This document shows, one piece after another, positions 27,439 through 54,888 of a stretch of DNA of 64,000 nt. Origin of the DNA: Marinomonas sp. SBI8L. GTDB lineage: Bacteria > Pseudomonadota > Gammaproteobacteria > Pseudomonadales > Marinomonadaceae. The stretch covers positions 62,001 through 126,000 of the forward strand of contig NZ_JSEO01000002.1 in assembly GCF_001624705.1 (NCBI RefSeq), written 5' to 3'. The notes below the pieces were generated by a model. The model ran no database searches, was not told where the DNA came from, and saw nothing but the letters and a program-made list of their open reading frames with translations. The first letter of the stretch is position 1; the number at the start of each line of letters is the position of its first letter. The translations under genes and the position numbers were made by a program.

Positions 27439-28029
27439 ATGCCTGAATTAATTTCTTTGATAGAAGAAGTGCGAGCCTGCACCTTATGTTCTGAACATTT
27501 AGAGCATGGTGTAAGGCCTGTTGTACAGCTTCATGAAAAGGCTAGAATTCTTATTGTAGGACAAGCCCCGGGTCGTAAAGTACATGAATCTGGCGTGCCA
27601 TTTGATGATGCAAGTGGTGATAGATTAAGAGATTGGTTAGGGATAGATAAAGCGACTTTCTATGATGAAGCTCAAATTGCTATTCTTCCAATGGGGTTTT
27701 GCTATCCAGGGTCCCATAAAGGAAAAGGTAAATCGGGAGATCTTGCTCCAAGGCCTGAATGCGCGAAAGCTTGGCGTAAAGCGTTATTGTCTAAACTTGA
27801 GCGTATTGAGCTCACCTTGGTAATAGGGCAGTATGCTCAAGCTTATCATCTTGGAAAACGATTAAATGTGACTGAGACAGTGAAAGCGTGGCAAGACTAT
27901 TGGCCTGATTGCGTGCCTCTGCCACATCCTAGTCCGAGAAATAATATCTGGATGGCAAAAAATCCTTGGTTCTCAGAAAACCTATTGCCTAAATTAAAAT
28001 TGGAAGTGGCTCGTATTCTACCCTCTTGA
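27439..28029 (+). CDS. Uracil-DNA glycosylase superfamily protein
   Basis: A 196-residue UDG-fold protein. Motif A is LIVGQAPGRKVHESGVPF and motif B is LPHPSPRNNIWM, as in the family 4/5-like branch. Only two Cys (CTLC near residue 15) stand where iron-sulfur members have four, so a cluster is unlikely. An upstream TTG frame exists, but the ATG at 27439 follows AGGGA. The active-site pattern GQAPG rather than GEAPG suggests a divergent enzyme; base-excision activity is not proven. Confidence 0.82.
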   Translation: MPELISLIEEVRACTLCSEHLEHGVRPVVQLHEKARILIVGQAPGRKVHESGVPFDDASGDRLRDWLGIDKATFYDEAQIAILPMGFCYPGSHKGKGKSGDLAPRPECAKAWRKALLSKLERIELTLVIGQYAQAYHLGKRLNVTETVKAWQDYWPDCVPLPHPSPRNNIWMAKNPWFSENLLPKLKLEVARILPS

Positions 28030-28552
28030 AACGTGAGTCTCTTGTGAATAAAAAATTATTCGTATTTAGTTTTTTACTACATGCTTCAAAGTGATGCCTT
28101 GCTTGATACTTTACCAATTACCTTAGCAGAGTAGGCTAATTAGAGGTGAATTGATCTTTGGCTCTCAAGGCAATTATCTAGGCTTTTTTTGTCTGAATGT
28201 ATTTGTTGTGAATTCTGAGCATGTCTATAAAAACTTTCTCCTGACGGTTTTTGTAAACTATTTTCATCCAACGGTTTTAGTTTTTTACGCTTGATTTGCC
28301 CTAGTTAAGCATAGGGTAAGCTGGATTCAGTTTTTCTAAAAACGCTAAAAACAGTGTCAGATTAATAAGTTGTTTGTAAGTTTTTTGTGTTTTTTGCTAA
28401 GCTTGCTCTGGTTGCTTGCATCTTTTTTGAACATTTCAATGTTTAGCCTTAAGTAAACTTTATTTATCATTATGTTTGTTTAAGTGAGTATGCAGCACTA
28501 CTTTTAAATAGGTCTGGATGAAATCCTAGTGCAATAATATCGGGAAGTAATT
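28030..28552. other. Intergenic: leader and promoter region of the envelope operon
   Basis: This is the longest gene-free stretch (523 bp), directly upstream of the eleven-gene envelope operon. The plus strand is T-rich. There are only short imperfect repeats, for example two ACGGTTTT copies near 28240-28280. I could not identify a clear promoter, riboswitch or small gene. The length suggests a regulated promoter or an untranslated leader. Confidence 0.5.
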
Positions 28553-30514
28553 ATGCAAAAGCCTTATCAAATTACCTTTACCATAATGCTCGCTTTAGCT
28601 CTGAGTGGTTGTGCAACCATTATGGGCTTTATTTTCGAAGATAAAAAAGTAGAAATGTTTGCTGCTGAAACAGATCCAATAAAAATTCAAGAATATCTTG
28701 AGTGGTCAGTTAATCGGCTCAATGAAGAAGATGAAGATAGTCCCGATCTATTGGCTAGGTTGATGCCTATTGCTGTTACGCAAGCTAATAATATTGATCT
28801 TTTTGACGTTAAGCCTAGTTTGTATAGTGCACTAACAGACAGTCTTGTAAATATCGCCAAAGATGGTGTGCAGACGACTGATCAAGAAGAGTGGGAAGAA
28901 GACGGGTTTCCTTATGATGTCACGATAGATTATTTAAGGGCTTCTGCTGCTTACAATTTGGGAAAACTTGATGGCGATACGATAGCATCTCAACTTCTAG
29001 TGATATTACGCAAAGTAGATTCACCAGGGGTGCAAACTGTCGTCATTAAATCTATGTTGGATAGAGTAAACAGCTATCGTGTTAGCCCCGAAATACAAGC
29101 ACAAGCTGTGACGGCCTTATCCAGTGTTGATGTGGCAAATTTAGCAGAAGATACACCATTGAGTCAGCTTGTTTACGCACTAGAAAATGAGCTTGTTACG
29201 CTTGCTATAATCAACCGAGTTTTAGCAAAAAAAGATATCTATCAATTATCGGTGCGTAATTTAAATTACATCTTAGATGTGAATGAAGGTTTGTTTATTC
29301 ATCACTTAGACAACCCTGGTAGTATTAATAAATCTGAATTGATTAAAAACTCTCGTTTACTCAGTTCTTTAGTGTTACCAAGGCAAGCCCAATATGATGG
29401 TGTTTTACCTAAGTTCACTAGTATTCAATTAAGAGCTCAAAGATTACTTTTGCAATATGTTCCAGGGCTTTATTACTACAGCATGTATGAAAATGCGCCT
29501 ATTAGTGATTATAGTTTGGGCCAATTGATGGCGAGTCTGGCGTTTTTAGATAGACATGATGACTATGCGACAAAGGCAAAAGGAAAATTGGTCGCAAAAG
29601 GGGATGATGAACATTTATTCTTTAATCATCATCAGGTTATGAACGCAGAAATCTATGCAACAACTAAGCTACGAGCGAAAGAATTAGTTTTTACTAGTTT
29701 GCAAAAAAGGGTAGAAACACGTCCTTATGCATACATAGATTTTATCTATTCATTTTTATATCTAAATTACCCTGATGAGTTTGCCGCCTATTTAATCAAA
29801 GCCGTTGATGTCAAATATAGGAATGCGAACCTTGATCAGCTCCAGCATTACTATGGATTACGTTTATCAAAAGATTCAGCAGTAACGGCCAAGCACAAAG
29901 CGCAAATAGTAGACAAAATTTCCGCTAAACAGTTATCAAGAAGCTTGGCTTACAATGATAGTGAGTTTAAGCGTTATACAGATAAAGTTATGCCTGTTTT
30001 TGTGGCAAACCAGCCTTTAGCCTTATTAAAAGGTCTGACTTCTCGTAATCAGAATGTGAAAAAACAAGCAGGTATTTCACATCTTGTTAATTACTATATT
30101 TCGGCACTTGAGAAGCAAGCGATAGTTAATCGAAAAACATATTTAGCGCCAGCAGGACGAATCATCGCGCTAAGAAAAGAGTCGGATACTAAAAAAATAT
30201 TTGGCAGCTTAATGGCATTACCTTTATCCGAAACCAGTAGTATGTTCGAGCAATATGCGTTTTCTGATTCTCGTACCAGCTTAGCAAGTGATTATTTATT
30301 CTTAGGTAATTATCTTACTAAACATAAAACGGGCTTAACGCCAAATTATGCGAGCCGATATGCCAAGTTATTTAGCTCAGGCGTTAGGCAAGCTAAAAGT
30401 GAAGATGCCTCTTTGCATGCTGGGCAACAAGGGATTGCGAATCTAAGTTCGGATGCAGATCTACAACAAATTAAAGCGGCGTTATCGGGTCGTTTTAAGA
30501 AAATCAGTTTTTAA
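28553..30514 (+). CDS. Helical-repeat lipoprotein, first gene of the envelope operon
   Basis: A 653-residue protein with a lipoprotein signal peptide (lipobox LSGCA near residues 18-22). The mature chain is almost entirely helix-prone, with irregular repeats reminiscent of HEAT/TPR-type solenoids, for example PGVQTVVIKSMLDRVNSY and LAVTALSS-like segments. I recognise no named family. The residue after the Cys is Ala and Asp is absent at that place, so outer-membrane sorting is likely. It heads an eleven-gene run; the next gene starts 15 bp later. A scaffold or sensor role on the outer membrane is inference. Confidence 0.75.
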   Translation: MQKPYQITFTIMLALALSGCATIMGFIFEDKKVEMFAAETDPIKIQEYLEWSVNRLNEEDEDSPDLLARLMPIAVTQANNIDLFDVKPSLYSALTDSLVNIAKDGVQTTDQEEWEEDGFPYDVTIDYLRASAAYNLGKLDGDTIASQLLVILRKVDSPGVQTVVIKSMLDRVNSYRVSPEIQAQAVTALSSVDVANLAEDTPLSQLVYALENELVTLAIINRVLAKKDIYQLSVRNLNYILDVNEGLFIHHLDNPGSINKSELIKNSRLLSSLVLPRQAQYDGVLPKFTSIQLRAQRLLLQYVPGLYYYSMYENAPISDYSLGQLMASLAFLDRHDDYATKAKGKLVAKGDDEHLFFNHHQVMNAEIYATTKLRAKELVFTSLQKRVETRPYAYIDFIYSFLYLNYPDEFAAYLIKAVDVKYRNANLDQLQHYYGLRLSKDSAVTAKHKAQIVDKISAKQLSRSLAYNDSEFKRYTDKVMPVFVANQPLALLKGLTSRNQNVKKQAGISHLVNYYISALEKQAIVNRKTYLAPAGRIIALRKESDTKKIFGSLMALPLSETSSMFEQYAFSDSRTSLASDYLFLGNYLTKHKTGLTPNYASRYAKLFSSGVRQAKSEDASLHAGQQGIANLSSDADLQQIKAALSGRFKKISF

Positions 30515-30529
30515 GCAGGGAGAATTGCT

Positions 30530-32101
30530 ATGAAGATGAATACGTTTTATGTCAGTTTAACCTTGCTTTTAGCTTATGGACAAACCGTAGTAGCTGATGA
30601 AGTAGAAGAGTATGATTTTTCGTATAAATCAGACTACTCGGTTACAAATTATGAAACTGATCTTGCTTTACTGCCGCAGTTTGATGTGACGGCGGATACC
30701 GGTGAAGTTTTGTTTGATCGTCGTGATGGGTTAGCTGCTAAAGTAAGTGTTAATCAGAGTATCGAGTCAGTTAAACAAACCGTTGTGGCTTACTCGGCAA
30801 GCAAAACAATGACATGGCAAGCTAATTACTTGCCACAGCCAAACACTAACAAACTCAATAAACTTTATACATTTTCCGTTAAAAATGAACGTATCCCTGT
30901 TTATTATGATGGACAAAAACATGTGTTAAATCGCGTTGTGCTCCAAGATGAAAATGGCCAAGTTTATTTCACCGCGAAATATGGTACGACAGAAAATGCT
31001 AAGCTGCATTTCCCCGCAAGTAAGTTGCAATACAAACTGACTAGCTTAAATGGCAGTATGCAATCAGATGGCAAATTGAGCTATAAAAAGAGTAATCCAT
31101 TTACCGCTGCTAAAACTGGTTACAAGGTCAGGGTTTCTCTTAATAACAAGGTGAATGAAAGTTTTGTTATTGCTCCATCCTTAAGGCTAAATGGCTCTCA
31201 TTCGGCCAACTTATCTACACCAAATGCTAAAAATGGCAACCATGGTAGTGATGGCCGTGGCGGAACAAGTTATTCCAGTAGTGCGTTATCAAGTGTGGCT
31301 GGTGCGTTTGCTGGTGGTAGCGGGCGAGACGGTAACAATGGTGGTGATGGTCGTCGAGGTGGCGATGGTGGTGATGGATATGATGCGAAAGATGTTGGCA
31401 GCATTAATGTGACAATTAAACCCTTTAACTCTCCCTTCTACCAACAGCCGTTAAAGGATTATACCTATAAATCTAGACAAGGTTCTGACCACTTATTATT
31501 TGAACAAACCCAAAAACTTTACATCGCAGCTGTAGGTGGCAGAGGTGGTAAAGGGGGGAATGGTGGTGACGGTGGTAATGGCGGTAATGGTGAGTCGGGA
31601 TCCGCGGGCACCAAAGGTAATAATGCAAGTGAATACAGCAGTGCAGGAAGTGGAGGTACTGGTGGTGACGGCGGTGACGGTGGTGACGGAGCTCGTGGGG
31701 GTAATGCAGGTGACGGCGGTAACGGTGGTGATGGCGGTCGAATTCAAGTCACATTATTTGGTCCAACCAGTTTTCAAGCTAATGCCCGTAGCTACTTTAG
31801 CGCTAAGGTAGGCGGTGGTTCTGGTGGTAGTTCTGGCCAGCCGGGCTCTGGTGGGTCTGGTGGTAGCCGAGGTGGCGCGGGGCCTGGTGGTCCTGGCGGT
31901 AGTTCATATTACAACCCAAATTGTACGATAGATTATTCAACAGGTTATTCAAGCTGTAACCCAATTAGTCGATCAGCAGGTTACCAAGGTAGCTCAGGCT
32001 CTTATGGTCGCTCTGGTTCATCAGGTTCGTCTGGTTCTTCAGGCTCATCAGGCTCTTATGGATCTAGCGGTAATATTAGCTTTTATGCGTCTGGAAATTG
32101 A
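30530..32101 (+). CDS. Secreted protein with collagen-like / Gly-Gly-X repeats
   Basis: A 523-residue exported protein (signal peptide to about residue 22). Residues 25-260 look beta-rich. After that, four Gly-x-y blocks alternate with short beta segments. They lie near residues 265-285 (GRDGNNGGDGRRGGDGG), 336-404 (GGRGGKGGNGGDGGN and a second run), 428-457 (Gly-Ser-Pro-rich) and 487-515 (GSSGSYGRSGSSGSS). Many triplets are Gly-Gly-x, typical of polyglycine-II sandwich lattices such as phage adhesin tips, rather than proline-rich collagen. The gene is in a compact operon, seven bases before a LolD-like ATPase. A surface or adhesin-like role is inference. Confidence 0.8.
   Translation: MKMNTFYVSLTLLLAYGQTVVADEVEEYDFSYKSDYSVTNYETDLALLPQFDVTADTGEVLFDRRDGLAAKVSVNQSIESVKQTVVAYSASKTMTWQANYLPQPNTNKLNKLYTFSVKNERIPVYYDGQKHVLNRVVLQDENGQVYFTAKYGTTENAKLHFPASKLQYKLTSLNGSMQSDGKLSYKKSNPFTAAKTGYKVRVSLNNKVNESFVIAPSLRLNGSHSANLSTPNAKNGNHGSDGRGGTSYSSSALSSVAGAFAGGSGRDGNNGGDGRRGGDGGDGYDAKDVGSINVTIKPFNSPFYQQPLKDYTYKSRQGSDHLLFEQTQKLYIAAVGGRGGKGGNGGDGGNGGNGESGSAGTKGNNASEYSSAGSGGTGGDGGDGGDGARGGNAGDGGNGGDGGRIQVTLFGPTSFQANARSYFSAKVGGGSGGSSGQPGSGGSGGSRGGAGPGGPGGSSYYNPNCTIDYSTGYSSCNPISRSAGYQGSSGSYGRSGSSGSSGSSGSSGSYGSSGNISFYASGN
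31322..32074 (+). repeat. Gly-x-y coding repeat blocks
   Basis: The DNA contains imperfect 9-base repeats of the GGTGGTGAC kind. They encode the glycine triplets at 31322-31384, 31535-31624, 31652-31741, 31811-31900 and 31988-32074. Codon use within repeats varies, so selection seems to act on the protein pattern rather than recent slippage. The last block has near-identical TCAGGCTCT-like units and may vary in number. Confidence 0.75.
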
Positions 32102-32108
32102 TTGAATC

Positions 32109-32825
32109 ATGCATAAAGAAGCAAATGATGTTGCAATAAAAGTTACAGATTTAGACAGATATTATCTTATCGATGGAAAACAGTCGCCGATTTATAAAAA
32201 CCTCACTTTGGAGGCAAAGGCAGGTGAGGTTACTTTAATTATGGGAGCCTCAGGTAGTGGGAAGTCCTCGCTTTTAAGACAGATAGCTTTATTGGATAAC
32301 ATACCTAAAGGTGACATTTTTTATGGTCATCAATCTGTCGCCTCTTTAGGCAAGGCTAAAAAGGCTAAGATTAGAGCGAAAAACTTGGGTTTTATTTTTC
32401 AGTCTTTTGCGCTTATTCCAGAATTTAGTGTGCTAGAAAATTGTGCTTTGCCGCTTTTAATGAATGGTAGTAAGCGTACAGAAGCGAATCATAAGGCGAA
32501 GGATTATATAAAACGTTTTATGAATGATATTGATCCGGATAAAAAGCCAAATGAGTTATCAGGAGGAGAGCAACAAAGAGTTGCCATCATTAGAGCTTTG
32601 ATCCATGAGCCTAGTGTCGTGATTGCAGATGAGCCAACAGGAAATTTAGACGAGATTAATGCTGAGTTTATTAAGTCAGAGTTAAAGCGAATTGCCAAAA
32701 GTTTAGGCAGTGCCGTCATTATTGTTAGTCATGATAAAAGTTTTATTGAAAGTGCTGACGCTTATTATCAGTTAGATGCTTGTCCTAATGGATTAAGTAA
32801 GTCTTTATTAACAAGGTATAAATGA
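32109..32825 (+). CDS. LolD/MacB-type ABC transporter ATPase
   Basis: A 238-residue ATPase. Walker A is GASGSGKSS (residues 46-54), the Q-loop is FIFQSFAL (Gln98), the signature LSGGEQQRV lies near 150, Walker B is VVIADEPTGNLD (170-181), and the switch His is in VSHDKSF. Sequence style is that of LolD/FtsE/MacB ATPases that drive mechanotransmission rather than import. Its stop directly abuts the GTG of the permease gene, so the two are coupled. With the second permease at the operon end, it can form a LolCDE- or TagTS-like complex. Confidence 0.92.
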   Translation: MHKEANDVAIKVTDLDRYYLIDGKQSPIYKNLTLEAKAGEVTLIMGASGSGKSSLLRQIALLDNIPKGDIFYGHQSVASLGKAKKAKIRAKNLGFIFQSFALIPEFSVLENCALPLLMNGSKRTEANHKAKDYIKRFMNDIDPDKKPNELSGGEQQRVAIIRALIHEPSVVIADEPTGNLDEINAEFIKSELKRIAKSLGSAVIIVSHDKSFIESADAYYQLDACPNGLSKSLLTRYK

Positions 32826-34034
32826 GTGCGGTTAGATATCAAGTTGCTGCTTGCTTGGCGATTTTTTAAAGGGCCATTATTTAGCTTTTTTATACTCTTT
32901 GCCTTTGTTTCCTGCTGTATTTTTAGCTTTTTTTTAATTACTGATAGTTATGAGAAACAGGTTGAAGAACGTTTTGCTAGTAAACAGCCACATTTCACCT
33001 TGAGTTTGGGGGGGGGTGTTTCTAGTTGGTCTGATTATAAAGCATCAGGTGAACTAGAAAATTTAAAGCGGAGCTTGCAAGATGAAGGCAGTATTTTAAG
33101 TGTAAGTGAATTTACTAAGGTCACTAAATGGCTAAGGTTAAAAGCAGCTACTGCGCAGCAAAGTGGTTTTGAGTCGGCTCAAGAGTACGATAAATTTAGC
33201 TCAGGTAATGTAACCCTAATTGGTTTAGAAAGGCATTTTCCAAGTGTGATCCCATTAACTGAGCTTAATTATTACGATGCTGGGGCCTATAAATTTAAAA
33301 TTACTAATCTTGAGTTTGCTGCTGATTGGTTAATGAATCCGAGTTTGGTGTTACCCAATGCCGTGTTAGATGCGAGCTTTTTTGCTCCCATAAGTCAAGA
33401 AGTCAGTATTAAATCAGTAGGGCATGGCTACCAAGGAAAAATTAAAGCTTTTATTAATGATTATAACGACGAATCCATCTTATATATGGGGATTGAACAG
33501 ATAGCGGCATGGCTTGATGACGATGATTTAAAAGAAGAGGGTCTTTACCTTCGTATCTTAGATAGTCGCGATATTGAGCAGGGTAAAAATGTGATTACAG
33601 CTTTATTGGCCAAGACAGGTGAAAACTGGACTGTAACAACTTGGTTAGATGAGAAAAGTAAGCAAAAAAGTATTTTGTTGATGACGAAGCTTCTAGGTTA
33701 TAGCTTGATCAGTGTATTGGTATTTGCCTTGATTCTTATATTGGGACTTAATCAGGCGAATGTCTTCATTAAAAAAGCTAAGTCATTGAATATACTTTAT
33801 ATGACAGGCTATTTACTGACACTACCTCTGGTTGTAACTAGCTTTTTTGTTGGTCTATTAGGACTTTTATTGGCTTATTTGGTGACTTTTATTTGGCTAA
33901 AACCCATGATTCTACAGGTGTTTTCTGTCTCAACAACTTTACACCAAGGTATGTCTTGGGGAGTGTGTATTACGGTACTTTTGTTGATTAACTTACTTAA
34001 TTTGATCGGTATGAAGAATAGGTTAGGGTATTAA
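32826..34034 (+). CDS. FtsX/LolE-like ABC permease, full length
   Basis: A 402-residue inner-membrane protein with the MacB/FtsX layout. TM1 is near residues 17-38, a periplasmic domain of about 240 residues follows, and three C-terminal helices lie near 282-302, 318-348 and 376-396. Translation starts at GTG immediately after the ATPase stop and ends with TAATG overlapping the next gene. The sequence is too divergent for a LolC or LolE assignment, and the periplasmic domain has no recognised motif. It probably pairs with the upstream ATPase. Confidence 0.85.
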   Translation: MRLDIKLLLAWRFFKGPLFSFFILFAFVSCCIFSFFLITDSYEKQVEERFASKQPHFTLSLGGGVSSWSDYKASGELENLKRSLQDEGSILSVSEFTKVTKWLRLKAATAQQSGFESAQEYDKFSSGNVTLIGLERHFPSVIPLTELNYYDAGAYKFKITNLEFAADWLMNPSLVLPNAVLDASFFAPISQEVSIKSVGHGYQGKIKAFINDYNDESILYMGIEQIAAWLDDDDLKEEGLYLRILDSRDIEQGKNVITALLAKTGENWTVTTWLDEKSKQKSILLMTKLLGYSLISVLVFALILILGLNQANVFIKKAKSLNILYMTGYLLTLPLVVTSFFVGLLGLLLAYLVTFIWLKPMILQVFSVSTTLHQGMSWGVCITVLLLINLLNLIGMKNRLGY

Positions 34035-37000
34035 TGTTTAATCGAAATTTTAGACTTATTAGCAGTATTATCTTGGCAATAGGCCTTGTGGGCTGCAATA
34101 CAGTTGAAGAAAAGCCATCAGGCCCGACCAATATTTTTGATGAGCTTGAATTAAAAGTATCGGAAGCTAAGGCAGCTAAACCTAATAGTTCTAGTTGGTC
34201 TGACCCTAGTGTTAAAGATATTAGATTGGTTGGCCCTATTTACCAGACGGGTTTTGAAAAAAGGTCACCTGCTACCAAAGCGCTGACAAAAGTACTGCAA
34301 TACATAGAAAATAACCCCTCTAAATTGCCTCAATTAACAAAACGCTCTTTAAATGACCAGTTCTCTGATTATCAGGTGAGTGATTTTGTACTAGGAGATA
34401 ATGAATTTAGTTATATACCCGCTGTTTTTAATGTAGGTTATGGTGATGAAGCTGACTTAAATGCCGTGCTTAATATCGTTTTAGAGCCAAATGGCCCTGC
34501 TGAAATTGGGTTTTATATTGATGCTCAAGCTTGGCAAAAAGACATTATCAGTTTACAAGGCTATAAAACGATCAAGTCAGAAGGTAAAGATCGTAATTCT
34601 ACTTGGTATCATTATAAGTTAAATCTTGAAGGGCAAGACAGTAAGGCTAAAGTCGATGCACTTTTGCGTATGGCTCTTTATGCAATTGGTTCAGATATTC
34701 GTGAGTTTGCGAGTATTGATCGCGATGCGGTTATGAAATTTAACGATAAAGATTATGTTGTAGAGCGAGCGAATGGCGATACTTTCGCTTTTATCTACCA
34801 AGATAGAGTTAAGCTTATTGAGAAGGATATACAACGAAAAATAGATGGGTTAGATAAAGAAAGAATTCTTAACAATACTGCCAATGCGCGAAGCCTTTTT
34901 ATTGATGCTAATGAGAGTTATGCCACAGTAAACACGCTAACAGATTATGTAAGTCAGGTTTCTCTTATATCCCTTAAAAACTCAAACCAAGTTAGGCCCC
35001 TATGGGAAAGTAAGCAATGGGATGAGTTTGCAAAAGCGGCATATTTTTTACCTAAACTAGACCTTACTCTTATTCTGACTGATAAAAACTTAGTTCTAAA
35101 ACAAGGTAATCTTGTTAAGTTTAAAAAAGACGCTACAAGAATAAGCTCTTTGAATGTGTTAGAAGCGAGAGAAAAAGCCTTTTATGTTAATAGCGGTGTT
35201 GCCTACTCCCTTGATCTTAAAAGTTATCAAGAAAAAGTACTAAACACATTGGGTAAACTGTCTTTATTGGCTGCAAGCCAAGACGGTAAAAGCCTTTATA
35301 GTTTGTCAGAAGAGACAAAACTCTCTTATTTCGACGCTAAGAATCAGCGCTTAATTAAACTTAAAGATTCAATTGAGTTAACTGGTATGCAGGTCTGTTC
35401 AGCGGGTAAAAAACTCTTATATTGGCATAAAAATAAAGCGTATCTGTACGAAAACCAAACTCAAACACACCACCTTATCCAGTTTGCCTCAGACCTTGAT
35501 GAAGACTTAATTGCAGCAACCTGCGCTGTGTCTGAAAATAAGCTCTTATTCATGACAGAGTCTGGAGGAATAAGGCAAATCGACACAGAGACCTATCAAG
35601 AAATTACCCAATTTGCTGGAAGCTATGATGCTTATGACAAGCTAAATTCTGGCTATGTTCTTCATTATTTGGCTGAAAGTGAGTTTGTTTATGGCGGTAA
35701 AAATGATCTTAGAATTAGGCCCACTACCACAGAAGCTGAAATTAGACGTGTTTATCAAAAACGTTTAGAGCGTATTGAAAGTGCACGTTCATGGTTAGAT
35801 AAATCATCGATTAAACAGTTGGTTTTTGCTGAGTCTATCTCTACAAGTGACTTAGACCTATACCAAAGTCTATTTAATGAGCAAGTTGTCACACAGTCAC
35901 AAAAAAGTGCTTATCTTAACTTTATTAATGAAGAGCAGGCAGATCCTTTACTTGTCGCCAATAAACCCAGTTTATTTAATGCTTTGAGTGGTGGTATAGA
36001 GGTGACGCAAGACGGCAATATTATGCTTGTAAAACAAAACGAAGTTGATTCATCTCGCTTTTTTACGACGTCTCAGCCTAACTGGGAGCATTTAGGCTTT
36101 CAGGTGGATACCCTTTTTCTTGGGACACAAGGCTTTGAGTCTAAAATCTATCGTCAGCTAGATAATGCGCAATTGACGGCAGATATCGTGAATATGGATT
36201 TAGGAAATGACGATTGGTTACTGACTAGTCTTACTAATGGTGAAATATCGTTCGAGTCTTTGTCATCAGAGTTTGAATTTAATGAAACTTTTGATGCTCA
36301 CAAAGGTGCTGTGACTGCTACAGCGATGACACAAGATAGAAAGAAGCTCGCCACCGCAGGCCGAGATGGTTTGATTAAAATTTGGCAGATAAATATACCG
36401 GCTAAAGAAGATGAGTCATGGATCAACTTAGAAAAAGAGCTAAAAGGTTATGCGGGCCATGTGCTAGACCTTGAGTTTGTTGATGATGAGACTTTGTTAT
36501 CAACGGGGACAGATCAGACGATAAAACTTTGGGAATTAAGTTTTGAAGGTACTGTGAAAAATGAAATGTTAGGTCATACAGATAGTGTCAAATTTGCTAA
36601 GTATGACGCTTCGATTCATAAAGTGGTTTCTGCTAGTGATGATGCCAGTGTCAGAGTATGGGATATAGATAAGGCTGAACAGGTTAAATCTTTTAAAGGG
36701 AGTAAAGGCGGGGTTGTTAGTTATCATCTTGGTTCTAACCGACTGGCTTATGCAAAGGGAGAGCAAATCATAGTTAAAAATATTGTCAGTGGCGATACCT
36801 TAGGCCGTATTGCAATTGAACAAATGCCAATAGGGTTAGCTCTTGGGGTAAATGGCCTTGTTAGCTATCTTATTTACCAAGACAAAGTGGCTGTTCACAA
36901 GGTGGCAACAGGTGAGCTGATCAATGATATTCAGCTGGCCAACGTAAAGAATATTAAACAAGTTTTTACCAGCTTTAATGATCATGATTTATATATAGTG

Positions 37001-37069
37001 ACAGACCAAGAGGCTTACATGCTGAATATGGGCCGATATGCTTTATATGGAATTGAAGATGCTAATTAA
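34034..37069 (+). CDS. Large lipoprotein with C-terminal WD40 repeats
   Basis: A 1011-residue lipoprotein (lipobox LVGCN near residue 19). Residues 30-250 form an unknown domain; a long beta-rich propeller-like region follows. Near 755-885 three WD-type repeats are plain: HKGAVTATAM...GLIKIWQI, YAGHVLDLEF...TIKLWEL and LGHTDSVKFA...SVRVWDI. Weaker blades continue to the C terminus. Its ATG overlaps the permease stop by one base. WD40 propellers on bacterial lipoproteins are usually interaction platforms, so it may be the hub of the envelope complex. The outer-membrane location is inferred from the lipobox. Confidence 0.85.
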   Translation: MFNRNFRLISSIILAIGLVGCNTVEEKPSGPTNIFDELELKVSEAKAAKPNSSSWSDPSVKDIRLVGPIYQTGFEKRSPATKALTKVLQYIENNPSKLPQLTKRSLNDQFSDYQVSDFVLGDNEFSYIPAVFNVGYGDEADLNAVLNIVLEPNGPAEIGFYIDAQAWQKDIISLQGYKTIKSEGKDRNSTWYHYKLNLEGQDSKAKVDALLRMALYAIGSDIREFASIDRDAVMKFNDKDYVVERANGDTFAFIYQDRVKLIEKDIQRKIDGLDKERILNNTANARSLFIDANESYATVNTLTDYVSQVSLISLKNSNQVRPLWESKQWDEFAKAAYFLPKLDLTLILTDKNLVLKQGNLVKFKKDATRISSLNVLEAREKAFYVNSGVAYSLDLKSYQEKVLNTLGKLSLLAASQDGKSLYSLSEETKLSYFDAKNQRLIKLKDSIELTGMQVCSAGKKLLYWHKNKAYLYENQTQTHHLIQFASDLDEDLIAATCAVSENKLLFMTESGGIRQIDTETYQEITQFAGSYDAYDKLNSGYVLHYLAESEFVYGGKNDLRIRPTTTEAEIRRVYQKRLERIESARSWLDKSSIKQLVFAESISTSDLDLYQSLFNEQVVTQSQKSAYLNFINEEQADPLLVANKPSLFNALSGGIEVTQDGNIMLVKQNEVDSSRFFTTSQPNWEHLGFQVDTLFLGTQGFESKIYRQLDNAQLTADIVNMDLGNDDWLLTSLTNGEISFESLSSEFEFNETFDAHKGAVTATAMTQDRKKLATAGRDGLIKIWQINIPAKEDESWINLEKELKGYAGHVLDLEFVDDETLLSTGTDQTIKLWELSFEGTVKNEMLGHTDSVKFAKYDASIHKVVSASDDASVRVWDIDKAEQVKSFKGSKGGVVSYHLGSNRLAYAKGEQIIVKNIVSGDTLGRIAIEQMPIGLALGVNGLVSYLIYQDKVAVHKVATGELINDIQLANVKNIKQVFTSFNDHDLYIVTDQEAYMLNMGRYALYGIEDAN

Positions 37070-38492
37070 TAAGAAATCTGTGCTTGCATGTTTAGCTGCT
37101 GTATCTTGCTACCTAAGTCCAGCATTAACTTTGCATGCCGTCGAGATTCAAGATGAAAAACCTGATTGGGCTAAAAGTAATTATAGAGCTGACTCGGGTT
37201 TGGATTTTATTGGTTTATCACAGTTATGGGTATCTGGCCTTGCTCAAGCTGAAGCAAAATCTATTACCGAAGCCTGTACTAATGGGCTAGGTAAAGTCTC
37301 CGAATTTTTTAGTGTTGAAATCGCATCAAAAAGCTCATCATCTCAAGTGGTGGTGGATGATGAGTTTCAAGGACAGTTTAGTGTTAAGACTGATAAGTTA
37401 AGTCGAATTAATCTCACAGGTATTAGTGTTACGGCTTCTTATTCAGAGCGGGTAGAAAAGGGCGATTATATACAATCATACTGTCTTTATCGTTTAACTC
37501 GTGCTCAGGTTAATGAAATTAAAAGAGATTTAGCGAAAGAGGCCGCTGAAATTCAGACACTTATTAGCCAATTTGGTGCAGAGTTAAACTCAGGCAATAT
37601 AGCCCAAGCCAAAATACAATTGGCTCTATTAAAAGGGAAAAAAAATGTATCTCCTGTACTTATACAGGAGTTGGATGTTTTGCTAGTTGAGTTTATAAAG
37701 AACAATATCGCGATAGATTTAGTGTTTGGTCAACACGCTTTTAGCGCTAACGATATTCTCTCTGTGCAGCTTAGGTCTAATCAAAATGTCTTTGTTTATT
37801 TGTTTGTTGATGATGGGCAATATGCAAATATGATTTTGCCAAGCCCTGCTTATGGCTTTAATCTGATTAAGCAAGATGTGGCTTTGACAGTACCAACATT
37901 GGAGCAAAAGAAAAAAGGAAACATTTATAAACTGGCTAAATCTCATCAGGGTAAAAAAGAGCCGAAGGTTTATTTAGTCGCTTCAAAGCAAAGGCTGCAA
38001 ACAGGTTTTGCTAAACCTGCTTTTAATCGCTTTTTAGTGAATGATACATCCAAGTTTAGTGACTTTTTGGCCAGTTGTAGGCTAATTCAAGATTGTATAG
38101 TGAATCAATACCCTTTGATGTTGGATCAAACGACATCTGATTTTAGTATTCAGTCCTATGCACTCTTTGTAAATCGCCAGCCTTATGATGATCTTGGCCA
38201 AAATGTTAAAGCTACCCTTATCGAGCAAGGTTTTAAATTTGATGATAAAGGGCTTAATTTAAAGTTCTTTATTAATCATAAAAAGGTTTTTTCAAATAAA
38301 TTGGAAGCGGATATGTTTGTGGCTGAATTACGCCTGGTTTCAGATGTAAATTCACAAAATAAGACATTGTTAAAAATGCGCTTTAATAGTCTATATGATG
38401 AGAGTCGTACTGACTTTTATATTGAGAGCATGCTTAAAAAGGCCACAAAAAAACTGATGAGTAAGGTGGAAGCAGGTGAAGTATCTTATTAA
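37059..38492 (+). CDS. Exported LPP20-like and DUF4384-type protein
   Basis: A 477-residue protein with a signal peptide (ending LTLHAVE). The segment around residues 35-140 (KPDWAKSNY, GLAQAEAKSITEAC, GDYIQSYCLYRLTR) resembles LPP20/FlgT-N-type domains. Residues about 215-310 look like DUF4384, with SANDILSVQLRSNQNVFVYL and a following NMILPSPAYG. DUF4384 often accompanies Ser/Thr kinases and FGE-fold proteins. The frame is open upstream, but the ATG at 37059, overlapping the previous gene by 11 bases and preceded by GGAATTGAAG, is the sensible start. The domain calls are by eye and moderate. Confidence 0.75.
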   Translation: MLINKKSVLACLAAVSCYLSPALTLHAVEIQDEKPDWAKSNYRADSGLDFIGLSQLWVSGLAQAEAKSITEACTNGLGKVSEFFSVEIASKSSSSQVVVDDEFQGQFSVKTDKLSRINLTGISVTASYSERVEKGDYIQSYCLYRLTRAQVNEIKRDLAKEAAEIQTLISQFGAELNSGNIAQAKIQLALLKGKKNVSPVLIQELDVLLVEFIKNNIAIDLVFGQHAFSANDILSVQLRSNQNVFVYLFVDDGQYANMILPSPAYGFNLIKQDVALTVPTLEQKKKGNIYKLAKSHQGKKEPKVYLVASKQRLQTGFAKPAFNRFLVNDTSKFSDFLASCRLIQDCIVNQYPLMLDQTTSDFSIQSYALFVNRQPYDDLGQNVKATLIEQGFKFDDKGLNLKFFINHKKVFSNKLEADMFVAELRLVSDVNSQNKTLLKMRFNSLYDESRTDFYIESMLKKATKKLMSKVEAGEVSY

Positions 38493-39252
38493 TTTAGTAT
38501 TAATAGGTTTGGTACTAAGTTGCTTCAATATTAACTTGGCAAATGCAGATAATGAGGCGGTTGAAAGCTTATTAAGTGAAGAGCTCCCTATAAATACAAT
38601 TGAATGGGTAAGTATTACTATTAAGGGTAATACTTGGCCTGAAATTATAGGGCCAACTTTAAATCTTGGTGATGACTTTAGCTTTATTTCCGCGTTGCAT
38701 TCTTTGCCAAGTGACTTTTCTATGATGAAAACAGAGGTGACTTGCACTCAAATGTTAGCGGGTGAAGGCTTATCTTCATTTAGAAAAATAGAAATAGCTA
38801 ATTTGTGTGAATATGGTATGGATGAACCTGTTACTGGTGTCGCATTTCATGAAGCAAATGATTTCTGTAACGCTTTAGATGCTAGTTTACCGACTGAGAG
38901 CCAATGGGTTTATGCAGCAAGTCAGGTAACAAATGACTGGTTAACGCGATATGGCGTGATTAATTATTTACATTCTGAAGAGCCGCAAAACGAATTACTG
39001 AGTTATTTTGCGGCTTATAAAGAGGATGCCTATGAGACAAGTGAAGGCCCACTGGGCCTACTTGGGTTATATGCAAGTGTTTGGGAAATAACGCAAAGTA
39101 TTTGGGGCAAGAACAATCGTGCCTATGTAATAAAGGGCGGTGCTTTTGATCTGGTTAATAAACCTTGGTTGATGCACCCATACTTAAAAGCGGCTTATAA
39201 CGAAAATGATGTGGTCAATCAAAATGTTGGTTTTAGATGTGTTAAACCCTGA
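38476..39252 (+). CDS. Exported FGE/SUMF1-fold protein without catalytic cysteines
   Basis: A 258-residue protein with a signal peptide (to about residue 25). The body carries the sulfatase-modifying-factor fold hallmarks: FSMMKTEVTCTQM, PVTGVAFHEANDFCNALD, LPTESQWVYAAS, GLLGLYASVWEIT, AYVIKGGAFD and the ending NVGFRCVKP. True formylglycine-generating enzymes have two cysteines after the Gly-Gly motif; here that segment lacks them, so it is probably a non-enzymatic binding domain. TagR of type VI secretion regulation is a periplasmic FGE-fold protein of this sort. Translation starts at GTG inside the preceding gene (17-base overlap). Confidence 0.85.
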   Translation: MKYLINLVLIGLVLSCFNINLANADNEAVESLLSEELPINTIEWVSITIKGNTWPEIIGPTLNLGDDFSFISALHSLPSDFSMMKTEVTCTQMLAGEGLSSFRKIEIANLCEYGMDEPVTGVAFHEANDFCNALDASLPTESQWVYAASQVTNDWLTRYGVINYLHSEEPQNELLSYFAAYKEDAYETSEGPLGLLGLYASVWEITQSIWGKNNRAYVIKGGAFDLVNKPWLMHPYLKAAYNENDVVNQNVGFRCVKP

Positions 39253-39293
39253 CGTAGATTTTATCTATATAGATAACTTTAAAGGAGAGCGTA

Positions 39294-40856
39294 ATGCTTA
39301 GCTTTAACTATCGATTAAAAAGTCGTTGCTTTAGCGCCATTTTAACGACGCTTATGGCGAGTTTATGTATAAAGGCTAACGCGGCAAGCCTTGCTAGCCA
39401 AGGGCTTAGTGAAAGCATTGATCATTATTCAAGTATCAATTATCAGGTGAGAAATAGCGCTCAACGTCAGTTAACTTATGCTAAGCCTGGTACGCAGACT
39501 ACGGTCCTAACCTTGTTAGAGTCGAAAAATAGCCTACAGCTCAAGCAAGGTATCAAGGCTTTTCAGCCATTGTTTCAATCAGTTCAGAAACAGCAGAATT
39601 ATCAGAATTTAAAGAAAGCTTTTATTGATCAAAATGGTGTTGAAAGACAAGCAGATTTAACGAATGAGCTTAATGAATTAGATCAAGAGCTAAGTGCTCT
39701 ATCAACCCAAGTAAATAATGAAAAAGACGTAAATAAAAAAGCGAAATTAAATAGTGAACTGGGTAAATTAAAGCAAGAACAAAGGAACCTTGAAAAAGCA
39801 ATAAAAGGTATTAAGCGAAAACAGAATGGTCTGACATCTTTGCCTGTTTATGACCTTTCTCAAGTGTTTGCTCAAGCTTATAAGAAAAACTTCTTTTTGG
39901 TAGATAGTGAATCTTTATACCTAGTCAATGTGAAGGTGACAAGAGCTCGATATCAAGATAGTTTGAGTGGCAAAAGCTTGTCTGTAAATGAGCTAGATTA
40001 TCGTATAGACAGCCAGATTACGTTGGCGTCACCTAATAAGTTTTCACGTCAAGATCGCTCAGTGCTTAAGCTAACTTACCATCAAGATACCTTGGTGCAT
40101 TTCAGCTATAGACAGCAAGAAGGCGTATTAAGTCATTTAGAAGACGCAGCCTTGTCTGAATTCGCGCGGTTGCTTAAGAGTACGCCGTTAGAACCTAAGG
40201 AGTTATCTTTTAAGGGTGAAACCTTAACAAACCTGTATCTATGGTCGAATGCTGATCAAGAGAAAACGTTAGAGGTTAGCTATAAAGAAACAGGTAAACG
40301 TAAAAACTTGATTCAAGTGAAAGTCAGTGCGCAAACAAACGTATTTGATCCTAAGCAATCTTCTACTGCACTTGAAAAACACATAGGTGTGCTTGCTGTG
40401 GCAAAAGGCCAGCGCTTAGTTGAACTGAAGAAAATACAAACCATCAATGGCAAAAAAGACATAGGTTGGGATCAAGATATTCGTAATGGCATCATAAAGC
40501 TGGGGCCAGAAACCATTTTTGTTTCTAAAGAAGATTATTATGGTTATGAAGGCTTATGGTATCTCGCAAGCTGGATGAGTCGTAATAATATTAAGCTAAA
40601 ACGTATCTTTTTGATTAATGGTACAGAACCCATTTCTTTAACTGCCAAATTAACAAAAGCGGGTGAGGTTGAGATATCGAAAGCAGGCAATGCGCTCTAT
40701 CAGTTCAGTGTCGATTTAAATGGATTCGTTACAAATTTATTCTTTACCCCATCTAAGCAAATGTTAACGCTAGTGAGTAAAGAAACAAAAACAACTAAGG
40801 CAAATAAAGCCAAAATTAAACAATACATGCAGAACAATAAGATAATTTTATTATGA
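39294..40856 (+). CDS. Exported coiled-coil protein of unknown function
   Basis: A 520-residue exported protein (signal peptide ending KANAAS). Residues about 118-178 form a strong coiled coil (LNELDQELSALSTQVNNE, LGKLKQEQRNLEKAIKG). The C-terminal 330 residues alternate short strands and polar loops, perhaps a beta-barrel-like or DUF3108-like fold, but I cannot name a family. It has a fair ribosome site (AAAGGAGAG) and ends with ATGA overlapping the next lipoprotein gene. The tight position in the operon argues for a structural role in the same envelope machine. Confidence 0.7.
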   Translation: MLSFNYRLKSRCFSAILTTLMASLCIKANAASLASQGLSESIDHYSSINYQVRNSAQRQLTYAKPGTQTTVLTLLESKNSLQLKQGIKAFQPLFQSVQKQQNYQNLKKAFIDQNGVERQADLTNELNELDQELSALSTQVNNEKDVNKKAKLNSELGKLKQEQRNLEKAIKGIKRKQNGLTSLPVYDLSQVFAQAYKKNFFLVDSESLYLVNVKVTRARYQDSLSGKSLSVNELDYRIDSQITLASPNKFSRQDRSVLKLTYHQDTLVHFSYRQQEGVLSHLEDAALSEFARLLKSTPLEPKELSFKGETLTNLYLWSNADQEKTLEVSYKETGKRKNLIQVKVSAQTNVFDPKQSSTALEKHIGVLAVAKGQRLVELKKIQTINGKKDIGWDQDIRNGIIKLGPETIFVSKEDYYGYEGLWYLASWMSRNNIKLKRIFLINGTEPISLTAKLTKAGEVEISKAGNALYQFSVDLNGFVTNLFFTPSKQMLTLVSKETKTTKANKAKIKQYMQNNKIILL

Positions 40857-41938
40857 ATAAATTGATCTATTTAAGCCTTATTTCAAGCCTACTTCTTGGT
40901 TGTGCAAGTCAAGATACGGAAGATACATCCGCTGAGACAAGTTTAGAGCAGAGCTTTGAGCAGGACTTATATGTGGACCTGTTTGATGAGGAAGAAGAGG
41001 AGCTAGATTACGAAGCTTATTTCTTTGACTCTAAAGGGCAGCGCTTTTTAGAAAAGAATAGTTCTTTTAGTAAGCTAGATACATTAATTGAGAGACTAAT
41101 AGAGCAAGCATTTGCTCAAGCTAGTACTCGTATGGCTAATGCTTATGGTGAGTTAGATGTTGCTTTAGAGGTAAGTGGTGGAGGCAGCTATCGTAATGAC
41201 GTTATTACAGCATCTGAGCAATACATTGTTTCCAACCCCTTACTTAGCTTGAGAGCGCAAGAGGAAGAAGTCGATCAAGTATTAGGAAAAATCCTAAAAC
41301 AGGAATTGGACCCTTTCTTTGCAACGTCTGACGGTGACTTTGGCGAGACAGCTGAGGTATCTGACTTGGTGCTATATATATTGGCTGAAGAAAAGGAAGA
41401 GACTCTAGACCTTAAAGTCAGTGCCTTAAGTAAGTCTGGTCAAGTATTGGGCGTCGCTAAATCAGAACTTCCCTTAAGAGGGCAGGTGACTCAAGCTAAC
41501 CGTTTTTCTTTTGTTGAAGTACCTTTTAGCGAGAGTAGTGGTGGTCGTGAATTTCAAATCATGAGCTACCCTGTGAGCGTGAATGAGATGTTTGGATCAG
41601 GTTCAACGTCCATTGCAGTGACAGATGTTAGTTTAGAGCAGGCAAGTAATTACTGTTATGAAAACGATTTACGTTTGTCGTCACCCTATGTTTTTGAATT
41701 TGCTCGCCGTGATTTACAAATTAATCGACCGGCTGGCAATGCCTATGAAGAGATCATTGCGGCAGTTGATTATGAAGATATCGACGAGCCATTTTATCGA
41801 GAAGAAGACAGATTAGAACTAGAAGATGATGATATGGCAAATACCTTTCTGGCTTTTAACTGGAACACAGAGCGTTACACAATAGTGTCAAATAGTTATA
41901 GCTCTAGAAATATGACGTTTCGTTGTTTTAAACAATAA
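40853..41938 (+). CDS. Acidic lipoprotein with degenerate FGE-like C-terminal domain
   Basis: A 361-residue lipoprotein (lipobox LLGCA at residues 14-18). It has an Asp/Glu-rich linker (residues 25-60) and a middle domain of about 150 residues. From about residue 225 the FGE-like pattern appears: FQIMSYPVSVNEM, VTDVSLEQASNYCYEN, LRLSSPYVFEFARRD and the closing NMTFRCFKQ. The central part of the fold is shortened and the Gly-Gly motif is missing. This is the second FGE-like domain in the operon. The start overlaps the upstream stop by four bases. The FGE relation is by eye and moderate. Confidence 0.75.
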   Translation: MNKLIYLSLISSLLLGCASQDTEDTSAETSLEQSFEQDLYVDLFDEEEEELDYEAYFFDSKGQRFLEKNSSFSKLDTLIERLIEQAFAQASTRMANAYGELDVALEVSGGGSYRNDVITASEQYIVSNPLLSLRAQEEEVDQVLGKILKQELDPFFATSDGDFGETAEVSDLVLYILAEEKEETLDLKVSALSKSGQVLGVAKSELPLRGQVTQANRFSFVEVPFSESSGGREFQIMSYPVSVNEMFGSGSTSIAVTDVSLEQASNYCYENDLRLSSPYVFEFARRDLQINRPAGNAYEEIIAAVDYEDIDEPFYREEDRLELEDDDMANTFLAFNWNTERYTIVSNSYSSRNMTFRCFKQ

Positions 41939-42000
41939 AAGTCTTATAAAAGGTACGTATGTTGTCATGATATTAAATCAGTATTTTAGGAGCCTTGTGA

Positions 42001-42954
42001 ATGCGTAAATATCTAATAAGCATGAGTCTTTGCCTTGTGTTGTTATTTACTCAATCAGCTTATGCTGCGAATAATATAGCGATTGCTGAGTTTGTAAATA
42101 ATATTCGAGGGTCATTTAATATGCTCGTCGCAAAAGAGTTTGTTCCTGGCTCTAAGCGACTTAAAAAGACACGTAAAATGATTAAAAAAGGCTATAACAA
42201 TGAAATCCGCAATATGCAGATTCTACTATCTGGACTGGATCTAGTTGCTAACATTCGTACCGCCAACCCCAAGCTGCTACCTCAGTTTGCAATTCAAGAA
42301 AAAGAGGTGGGTAAAACGTTAGATAATGTTGTTGTCTCTTTAACAAGTATTATAAAAACGCGTATTGATGCCAGTAATCAGTTGGCTTCAACACAAATTG
42401 ATAATTCAGGGGCAGAAATTGAGCTTATTGATGAAGAGTTTGATGAAGATGATATCGGTTCAGATATTGATTTAGATGATAATCTAATTGAAATATCAGA
42501 CGAATCTATTGAGATAGATAATGAAAGGCTAAATTTAGATGATGTAGCTAAACAAGCTTACATTGATATAGCCATTCAATATGTGCCTCAGTTTGCAGGT
42601 AAAGAAGTGACTTGGTATGCGGGCGATAAATCCGAAAAAATTCAATTAGGAAAGGGGATGTCGTTAAAACATGCGTTTGTTCCTTATTCACGACAAGGGC
42701 TCATCCAGCCATATCCGCTGCATTCAATCTTTGCGACCTCTTTTCTACCTGACCGTAAAGGGGTGCTTCACGTGATGCGCATGTATATTATTCTCATGGT
42801 GAATGAAGCAGAGCACGGTACTGTCCGAGTTGCTACCAGGGAAATACCGACCTTTAGATGGGATAGGAACCCTTACTTTATCGCCGCTGCAACTGGAACT
42901 GTTTTGAAGAAGATATTTACCAGTACCTTAGGTCAAAAAGTAGATAGCTTTTAA
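42001..42954 (+). CDS. Exported protein with acidic central segment, unknown function
   Basis: A 317-residue protein with a signal peptide (ending SAYAANN). The N-terminal 110 residues are helical with many basic residues. A very acidic stretch follows at about residues 138-178 (DEEFDEDDIGSDIDLDDN), possibly calcium-binding or a flexible linker. The C-terminal domain (YVPQFAGKEVTWYAG, QPYPLHSIFATSFLPDRKG) is not one I recognise. It is 62 bp after the lipoprotein and 17 bp before the second permease. Confidence 0.68.
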   Translation: MRKYLISMSLCLVLLFTQSAYAANNIAIAEFVNNIRGSFNMLVAKEFVPGSKRLKKTRKMIKKGYNNEIRNMQILLSGLDLVANIRTANPKLLPQFAIQEKEVGKTLDNVVVSLTSIIKTRIDASNQLASTQIDNSGAEIELIDEEFDEDDIGSDIDLDDNLIEISDESIEIDNERLNLDDVAKQAYIDIAIQYVPQFAGKEVTWYAGDKSEKIQLGKGMSLKHAFVPYSRQGLIQPYPLHSIFATSFLPDRKGVLHVMRMYIILMVNEAEHGTVRVATREIPTFRWDRNPYFIAAATGTVLKKIFTSTLGQKVDSF

Positions 42955-42971
42955 CGATAAGGATAAAGCTG

Positions 42972-44015
42972 GTGCTAGAACATTCAATTCAGTTGCTTAA
43001 AATTTTAAGCAGGGGGCAATCAAAATTTATCCGTTTAGCTCTTTTGAGTTTGCCCCTAATACTGATAATTGTATTTTATAGCTTTTTCATTACTCAAAAC
43101 TTGGTAGATGCTTTTGAAAAGCATATGCACAAAAGCTACTTTGGTGTGTTTGGTGATCTACAACTAGTATCAACCTCAGGATTACTAGAAGAAGTTTATA
43201 ATGCACCTGAACTCAAACATCTTAATCGTTCCTACCGTATCTCTACTCAGTCTGTTTTATTATTTGAAGCTGGTAAGAAAGACGTTCTAAAAGGCGTCAA
43301 ACTTCTTGCTTATGAAACGGATTACCTTATTAATAAATTTAACTCAGAGAGTGATCTTAGGAGCTACCAATCTGGTTCAATCATTTTAAGTGCAGTCGTA
43401 TTTAACCAGCTTGATGCGGGAAACTATCAGATAAAAAGCATCTTTAACCCTTTGACTAAGTCATCAGCTAATTTTAATCAGCAGATGAAATTAGATTTTG
43501 GCTTTTTAGGCAGTGAACCCATTGTCGTCATGAGTTTAGTTGATTTACAAAAGCTATTTTCAAACAATAAGCGTGAGGATAATGCTGATGGAAAGCTTAG
43601 CTACAATCAGATCGAATTTAATGGTTTGAATGAACAAGATATAGCGCTTGTTAAGCATGTTGCAAGTAGCGCTTTAACACTGGGTTTGGCTAATGATTAT
43701 CAATTGATTAATCAAAAAGCGCTGACGCAAGAATCCCGTCTTATTTTTGCTCGCATTAATTATTTTAAAGCGGCATTCTTTTTTATTCTTATATCCATTA
43801 GTTTTGCGATTTATTTGATGGCGCTGAAATTGTTACTGAATACTAAGAGAGAGGCCCTTACTATTCTGCAATGCTTAGGTGTTTCGAATACTCGCATTGT
43901 GATGACATTAGTATTATTAATCTTTGTGGTTACTTGTTTATGCTTCTTCTTAGCCCAACAGTTGGCTTTATCATCAACGGCTGAATTCATTAAGTTTGTT
44001 GGTATAACGCTTTAG
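42972..44015 (+). CDS. FtsX/LolC-like permease lacking the last helix
   Basis: A 347-residue second permease. TM1 lies near 24-44 (ALLSLPLILIIVFYSFFI), followed by a periplasmic domain of about 220 residues. Only two C-terminal helices follow (near 268-290 and 308-332), separated by the typical REALTILQCLGVSNTRIV loop of FtsX-family proteins. The usual fourth helix is absent; the stop comes 15 residues after TM3 and no shifted continuation is seen. It may pair with the first permease as an unequal heterodimer, or be a decayed copy. Translation starts at GTG. It ends seven bases from the converging kinase gene. Confidence 0.8.
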   Translation: MLEHSIQLLKILSRGQSKFIRLALLSLPLILIIVFYSFFITQNLVDAFEKHMHKSYFGVFGDLQLVSTSGLLEEVYNAPELKHLNRSYRISTQSVLLFEAGKKDVLKGVKLLAYETDYLINKFNSESDLRSYQSGSIILSAVVFNQLDAGNYQIKSIFNPLTKSSANFNQQMKLDFGFLGSEPIVVMSLVDLQKLFSNNKREDNADGKLSYNQIEFNGLNEQDIALVKHVASSALTLGLANDYQLINQKALTQESRLIFARINYFKAAFFFILISISFAIYLMALKLLLNTKREALTILQCLGVSNTRIVMTLVLLIFVVTCLCFFLAQQLALSSTAEFIKFVGITL

Positions 44016-45858: not shown

Positions 45859-45878
45859 AGATGCTTATTCTTGTTTGC

Positions 45879-47138: not shown

Positions 47139-47159
47139 TATGGGTCTCCTGATAACGGG

Positions 47160-54856: not shown

Positions 54857-54888
54857 AATCGCCAATAATTGAAGAGTAAGTTTTATTT

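Follow-up and report, generated by a model that had tools for sequence, protein, structure and literature searches.

LolD and YbbA are type VII ATPases. Transporters of this type carry out their periplasmic work through partners, and individual systems are defined by those partner proteins; one of them, the YbbAP-TesA set, has been described in E. coli (both from the accessible part of PMC12646458). The FGE fold serves as a non-catalytic docking hub in the outer-membrane ring protein PorK, according to the portion of PMC12421860 available. In host-associated Deltaproteobacteria that mostly lack type VI secretion, tagQ and ppkA, mostly with tagR-S-T, have been described together with SrfBC (PMC3608642, likewise available in part), so that a Tag module without type VI genes is not itself new. 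Here we analyse an operon of eleven genes (g01 to g11) within a stretch of 64,000 nucleotides from Marinomonas sp. SBI8L (contig NZ_JSEO01000002.1, positions 62,001 to 126,000; hereafter the window), which lies on contig C12 of the 5.19-Mb genome. It is a conserved, very rare envelope operon composed mostly of proteins without a family, and the Tag label that a preliminary description had given it is not borne out. We found no description of such an eleven-gene operon in the titles and abstract openings listed by literature searches, subscription papers being mostly beyond reach.

A conserved and rare operon

All eleven genes recur in Marinomonas sp. MED121 (G036), in unchanged order and at the same chromosomal place, between a uracil-DNA glycosylase and a LysR gene on one side and kinase and dehydrogenase genes on the other. 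Conservation of gene order had been proposed as a check on the distinctness of the system; in the one relative found, the order is kept and the operon is not fused to a type VI cluster. Protein identity between the two species runs from 45% (g07) and 48% (g11) up to 79% (g09) and 88% (g10), and across the eleven genes the proportion of nonsynonymous differences (pN) is 0.085–0.393, with synonymous differences (pS) at 0.70–0.78. The recurrence of the whole order, together with pN well below pS, excludes chance open reading frames (ORFs), and the operon is under purifying selection between two species with near-saturated synonymous sites. MED121, also known as Marinomonas blandensis, has recently been used in laboratory co-culture (accessible part of PMC12175539), which makes the operon open to experiment.

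The operon is scarce even within its genus: of 49 Marinomonas genomes, two have a credible g04 and two have g10. A further match to g04, in G001 (E 7e-4), was rejected because, by reading, it sits in an EptA-like frame. In samples of the order, class and phylum, each of which includes the source genome, that genome alone was recovered with g01 (1 of 390 order genomes), with the N-terminal part of g05 (1 of 369 class genomes) and with g08 (1 of 249 phylum genomes). The search with g10 returned the source genome and a fragment in G653 (2 of 369 class genomes), the latter a match of 47 residues (E 7e-5) with two in-frame stops that we took as noise. These samples thus point to no credible homologue of the operon outside the genus. 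MED121 was evidently not drawn into them, because it would have matched, and distant relatives could be missed because the search profiles had at most two rows. Contig scans with short exact patterns, which distant relatives would escape, gave nothing for g04 and MED121 only (NZ_CH672432.1) for g10. Among plasmids, g01 and g06 had zero matches; g05 matched 31 records, all with less than 80% query coverage, and the 20 of them that were listed align solely with the WD40 end.

The genes of the operon, with their predicted products, are:

g01, 28553–30514, plus strand: lipoprotein of 653 residues (lipobox LSGC-A), no known family, 74% identical in MED121
g02, 30530–32101, plus strand: probably exported protein of 523 residues, with a Gly-rich C-terminal half containing Gly-Gly-x runs
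g03, 32109–32825, plus strand: ATP-binding cassette (ABC) ATPase of LolD/MacB type (Pfam ABC_tran, 102.9 bits)
g04, 32826–34034, plus strand: permease candidate of 402 residues, from hydropathy and a weak LolC/E profile match
g05, 34034–37069, plus strand: lipoprotein of 1011 residues (LVGC-N) with C-terminal WD40 repeats (64.7 bits, cut-off 27)
g06, 37038–38492, plus strand: probably exported protein with a DUF4384 match of 15.8 bits (cut-off 27)
g07, 38476–39252, plus strand: probably exported protein of FGE-sulfatase fold (PF03781, 57.6 bits, cut-off 23.3)
g08, 39294–40856, plus strand: protein of 520 residues with a coiled coil at its centre and a highly conserved C-terminal region, no family above cut-off
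g09, 40853–41938, plus strand: lipoprotein of 361 residues (LLGC-A) with a weak C-terminal FGE-like segment, 79% identical in MED121
g10, 42001–42954, plus strand: probably exported protein of 317 residues, no Pfam family, the most conserved member (88% in MED121)
g11, 42972–44015, plus strand: second permease candidate, 347 residues (FtsX, 16.9 bits, cut-off 25.5)

The exact ORF coordinates confirm eleven co-directional genes spanning precisely 28553–44015, as first described, and the measured gaps agree with the largest spacing given there, 62 bp. In order, the gaps are 15, 7, 0, -1, -32, -17, 41, -4, 62 and 17 bp in the window and 13, 3, 0, -4, -11, 51, -1, -4, 60 and 21 bp in MED121. Translation of g06 probably begins at the internal ATG at 37059 and not at 37038, which would leave an 11-bp overlap as in MED121.

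The Pfam cut-off is passed by g03 (ABC ATPase), g05 (WD40) and g07 (FGE-sulfatase) only. Sub-threshold hints were obtained for g02 (collagen, 20.9 bits, cut-off 27.2), g06 (DUF4384) and g11 (FtsX), and no convincing match for g01, g04, g08, g09 and g10, with g04 matching zero families at E≤1. Eight of the eleven proteins therefore pass no Pfam cut-off, yet the full set is kept in order under selection in diverged species. A PADLOC scan that excluded g11 yielded generic ATPase and repeat matches, one weak match to g02 and nothing else; an NCBIfam scan took in the operon proteins other than g10.

Nearly all of the products had been said to carry signal peptides, lipoboxes or transmembrane (TM) helices. 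By Kyte-Doolittle hydropathy, which together with reading underlies our export calls, an N-terminal hydrophobic segment scores in seven of the ten non-ATPase proteins of the window; g02, g08 and g09 fall below and were assigned by reading. In MED121, the scan does detect the segment in g02 and g08. The lipobox cysteine is kept in both species in three proteins, g01, g05 and g09 (LLGC of the window g09 by reading), so the three lipoproteins hold, with the WD40 protein g05 as one of them. The DUF4384 assignment of g06 corresponds to a real match that stays below cut-off. As for the two FGE-like proteins previously proposed, g07 is secure and g09 is a weak relative at best (hhalign probability 38.7% for g07-g09 and 0.2% for g09-TagR); searches of PDB sequences gave no match for g07 and a single chance-level match for g09. 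By reading, g07 does not show, just before its C-terminal GFRC, the cysteine pair that we take to stand there in true FGEs. From residue 226 onward g02 is 29% Gly, with its Gly-Gly-x runs between residues 336 and 404, and the N-terminal ~700 residues of g05, without a Pfam family, are 57% identical in MED121. A suspected likeness of the g08 C-terminus to DUF3108/LolA-like folds found no confirmation; the predicted model of this protein matched nothing in Foldseek at E≤0.001.

Tests against TagQRST and type VI secretion

As yardsticks we used an annotated Tistrella cluster, a Klebsiella SrfABC-linked set, a Thiodictyon set and the L056 run, TagF-PpkA-TagT-TagS-TagR-TagQ, in which TagF, FtsX and FGE were assigned by model and the remainder named by reading; this run is one of 20 TagF regions examined and was recognised by its ATPase. 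In an ATPase tree of 13 rows, with long branches, two TagTs of odd make-up and rough FtsE (193 aa) and MetN rows, the three TagTs form a clade (support 99/98) with g03 outside it. The best score of g03 is with two LolDs (40–41% identity, 154–162 bits), compared with 37–39% and 140–142 bits for two YbbAs and 31–38% and 84–105 bits for three TagTs; identity to the MacB ATPase is 35%. Both species' copies of g03 retain intact Walker A, signature, Walker B and H-loop motifs. The window protein fails the equivalog score of the LolD model (TIGR02211, 197.4 bits, 307.75 required) and reaches 169.3 of 375 bits against the model of the DarD exporter ATPase.

The permease candidates fare no better against TagS, with hhalign probabilities of 0.4% for g04 and 0.2% for g11 (profiles of two rows each), compared with 93.4% for a control of LolC/E with TagS. 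Against one TagQ, named by reading, g01, g05, g09 and g10 reach at most 1.1% probability. Only g07 finds a counterpart, in TagR (94.2%), and both TagRs scanned match the same Pfam family as g07; this is weak evidence, because the FGE fold is widespread. The TagQRST identity of the operon was therefore rejected on the ATPase tree, the permease profiles and the TagQ comparison, and of the TagQRST-like core proposed earlier g07 alone retains its match. By hydropathy only, g04 shows a single TM peak near the N-terminus and three near the C-terminus, separated by ~250 residues, a layout shared with LolC/E and TagS. TM peaks are also present in g11. The Pfam labels of these two permease candidates are weak (none for g04, 16.9 of 25.5 bits for g11). 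In the MED121 copy of g11 (L008:2543-3571), as in that of the window, a fourth TM helix is not recognisable.

Tss families are absent from the 32 window proteins scanned with Pfam, the other ORFs of the window being unscanned. A search of the rest of the genome, suggested by the preliminary description, recovered TssC three times on two other contigs, once on C1 and twice on C67, so its statement that type VI genes are lacking is true of the scanned part of the window only. Both clusters include an FHA protein, and in the C67 cluster a short Ser/Thr kinase of 239 aa (L014:15124-15843) directly follows TssM; TagF was not found in the source genome (G000). Of the 49 Marinomonas genomes, 22 carry TssC, and two of these also have g04 and g10. 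Since the other 20 lack the operon, it is not needed for type VI secretion, although both of its carriers have TssC and MED121 is listed with a type VI system (PMC12175539, accessible part). Compared at E≤1, the eleven proteins gave no match to either of the type VI loci.

A candidate envelope machine and its rivals

We tentatively read the operon as encoding one envelope machine whose ABC motor is a divergent member of the MacB/LolCDE superfamily (type VII-like), with g02 as its likely client. An ATPase pair of g03 would serve two unlike membrane halves, g04 and g11, and the energy of ATP would set the periplasmic parts of these two in motion by mechanotransmission, with no pumping of solutes. 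The force would be passed to the outer membrane through the lipoproteins g01, g05 and g09 and the soluble g06, g07, g08 and g10, among which the FGE-fold g07 may act as a docking hub without enzymatic activity. Such a machine would most likely serve to expose, anchor or assemble g02, the sole member resembling a surface or matrix protein. By reading, the residue after the lipobox cysteine is Ala or Asn, never Asp, in all three lipoproteins; a residue other than Asp favours the outer membrane. Also in favour are the unbroken gene order between the two species, the intact motifs of g03 and its best scores with LolD and YbbA, the TM layout of g04 and the documented hub role of the FGE fold in PorK. 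That the products form a complex, that they lie at the outer membrane, that the ABC core acts as a motor and that g02 is its client are points that we infer with low confidence. It is doubtful whether the operon is, more specifically, an undescribed, lineage-restricted trans-envelope ABC machine in which divergent permeases, an FGE hub and a WD40 lipoprotein drive Gly-Gly-x surface assembly. From the separate trans-envelope machine of the preliminary description, a conserved envelope unit apart from type VI secretion is upheld, and a trans-envelope role is plausible. If the products do form one complex, the MacB/LolCDE superfamily, in which partners define the known functions, would gain an additional task, and the FGE fold an additional role at the envelope beyond type VI and type IX secretion.

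Several observations weigh against this envelope-machine reading. An R-[AT]-x-x-[IVT]-x-[PA]-A-x-x-[LV] C-terminal tail, present by reading in all 3 LolC/E and 4 TagS proteins compared, is missing from g04 and g11, and neither is recognised as FtsX/MacB-type at the Pfam cut-off, whereas among the controls E. coli LolC and the genome's own LolC/E pass FtsX and MacB_PCD and one TagS passes FtsX. Profile probabilities with LolC/E are 6.4% for g04 and 0.3% for g11, and hydropathy gives g11 only two C-terminal TM peaks, with the fourth TM helix not recognisable. Together, the poor profile matches, the absent tail and the two peaks of g11 leave g04 and g11 as, at best, a very divergent pair within the superfamily. 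The AlphaFold models of g08 (pLDDT 46.6, confident only in a helical stretch at ~113–181) and g10 (pLDDT 40.5, unusable as a fold) are of low confidence. The promoter scan of 27900–29486 found no plus-strand consensus promoter, and so none upstream of g01, and g02 is tied to the other ten genes by position alone.

The operon might instead encode a second, dedicated LolCDE, in which g03, g04 and g11 release only g01, g05 and g09 to the outer membrane. The best score of g03 with LolD, the two unlike permease candidates in the places of LolC and LolE and the three lipoproteins in the same operon fit this idea, but it is unlikely: the genome's own Lol genes on contig C7, a LolD-type ATPase adjoining a LolC/E permease above cut-off, would be expected to serve these lipoproteins, g03 falls short of the LolD cut-off, the LolC/E likeness of g04 is weak and that of g11 nil, and g02, g06, g07, g08 and g10 would be left unexplained. 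We consider it quite improbable that the operon is a TagQRST-like sensor of contact or damage that signals to a kinase and to a type VI system located elsewhere in the genome. The TagR profile match of g07, the TssC genes of both operon genomes and the C67 cluster, with FHA and a kinase behind TssM in a genome without a detected TagF, would suit such a sensor, but the TagT, TagS and TagQ tests fail, g04 and g10 are absent from 20 of the 22 TssC-bearing Marinomonas, the eleven proteins lack matches to the two type VI loci, and the adjacent kinase sits behind dehydrogenase genes.

An FtsEX-like switch, in which the ABC core controls wall remodelling through the coiled-coil g08 together with g09 and g10, draws on the confident helical stretch of the g08 model and on the regulation of periplasmic amidases, instead of transport, by FtsEX-EnvC (accessible part of PMC12646458). 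The Pfam scans of the eleven proteins turned up neither amidase nor LysM nor SPOR domains, and an operon carried by just 2 of 49 species is an unlikely candidate for a core function in the wall. We hold this reading to be very improbable. We give the lowest probability to a MacAB-type exporter of a peptide or small toxin, for which the MacB identity of g03 and its relation to the DarD ATPase speak; neither a membrane-fusion adaptor nor a TolC-type protein is seen by Pfam in the operon, and the permeases, each a protein of its own, match no MacB domain.

Neighbouring genes and known systems

Directly beyond g11 lies a gene that had been linked to the operon:

Ser/Thr kinase, 44023–45858, minus strand: Pkinase match of 68.2 bits, convergent with the operon

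The kinase exists as described, but on the opposite strand and within a dehydrogenase group. Orthologues with 73–90% identity are found in 6 of 49 Marinomonas genomes, weaker matches elsewhere being partial and confined to the kinase domain. In 6 of 6 genomes the kinase follows E1alpha-E1beta-E2 of a 2-oxoacid dehydrogenase, and in 2 of 6 the operon stands beside it; in G043, ~1.2 kb beyond the kinase is covered, and neither g04 nor g10 had a match when that whole genome was searched. A role as the operon's signalling partner was rejected, given the constant dehydrogenase neighbourhood and four carriers without the operon, and the kinase is best read as a member of the dehydrogenase group, outside the operon. 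Across 44023–49320 (minus strand), this Hanks-type kinase is the fourth gene behind E1alpha-E1beta-E2 and is possibly dedicated to the dehydrogenase.

Two other loci of the genome carry related ATPases. At C45:113388-116299 (L072), a locus distinct from that of the main Lol genes (C7), another LolD-like ATPase and a LolC/E-like permease (132.9 bits, cut-off 362.45) enclose a further protein. At 54239–58037 of the window, a YbbA-type ATPase and an FtsX/MacB_PCD YbbP-like permease accompany an oppositely oriented TesA-like GDSL hydrolase, which is 76% identical in MED121.

As with PorK, GldK and GldJ of type IX secretion, the FGE fold is employed here at the envelope, but g07 reaches only 13.2 of 350 bits against GldK (TIGR03525), no other type IX family is seen in the Pfam and NCBIfam scans, and type IX secretion is energised by PorLM rather than an ABC motor. 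The SrfABC-linked vWA-TagT-TagS-TagR set of a Klebsiella plasmid and of Deltaproteobacteria (PMC3608642, in its accessible part) resembles the operon as an ABC and FGE set apart from type VI genes, the Klebsiella stretch (25 kb, 17 features) having zero type VI structural genes; it differs in carrying, by sequence, a TagS relative, whereas the present operon has no TagS relative, SrfABC or vWA. TagQRST itself likewise combines an ABC ATPase and permease, an FGE-fold protein and a lipoprotein, but g03 lies outside the TagT clade, the permeases and lipoproteins are unrelated by profile, and PpkA, PppA and TagF do not adjoin the operon. With LolCDE the operon has in common an ATPase 40–41% identical to LolD, two unlike permease candidates, a large part between TM segments and lipoproteins, here encoded in the operon; it differs in an ATPase below the LolD cut-off, hardly similar permeases, g11 apparently one helix short, eight additional genes and a host genome with its own Lol genes. 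YbbAP-TesA differs in that YbbP has ten TM helices (accessible part of PMC12646458) and in having its own set within the window, and it resembles the operon in the ATPase superfamily and in a function defined by its partner.

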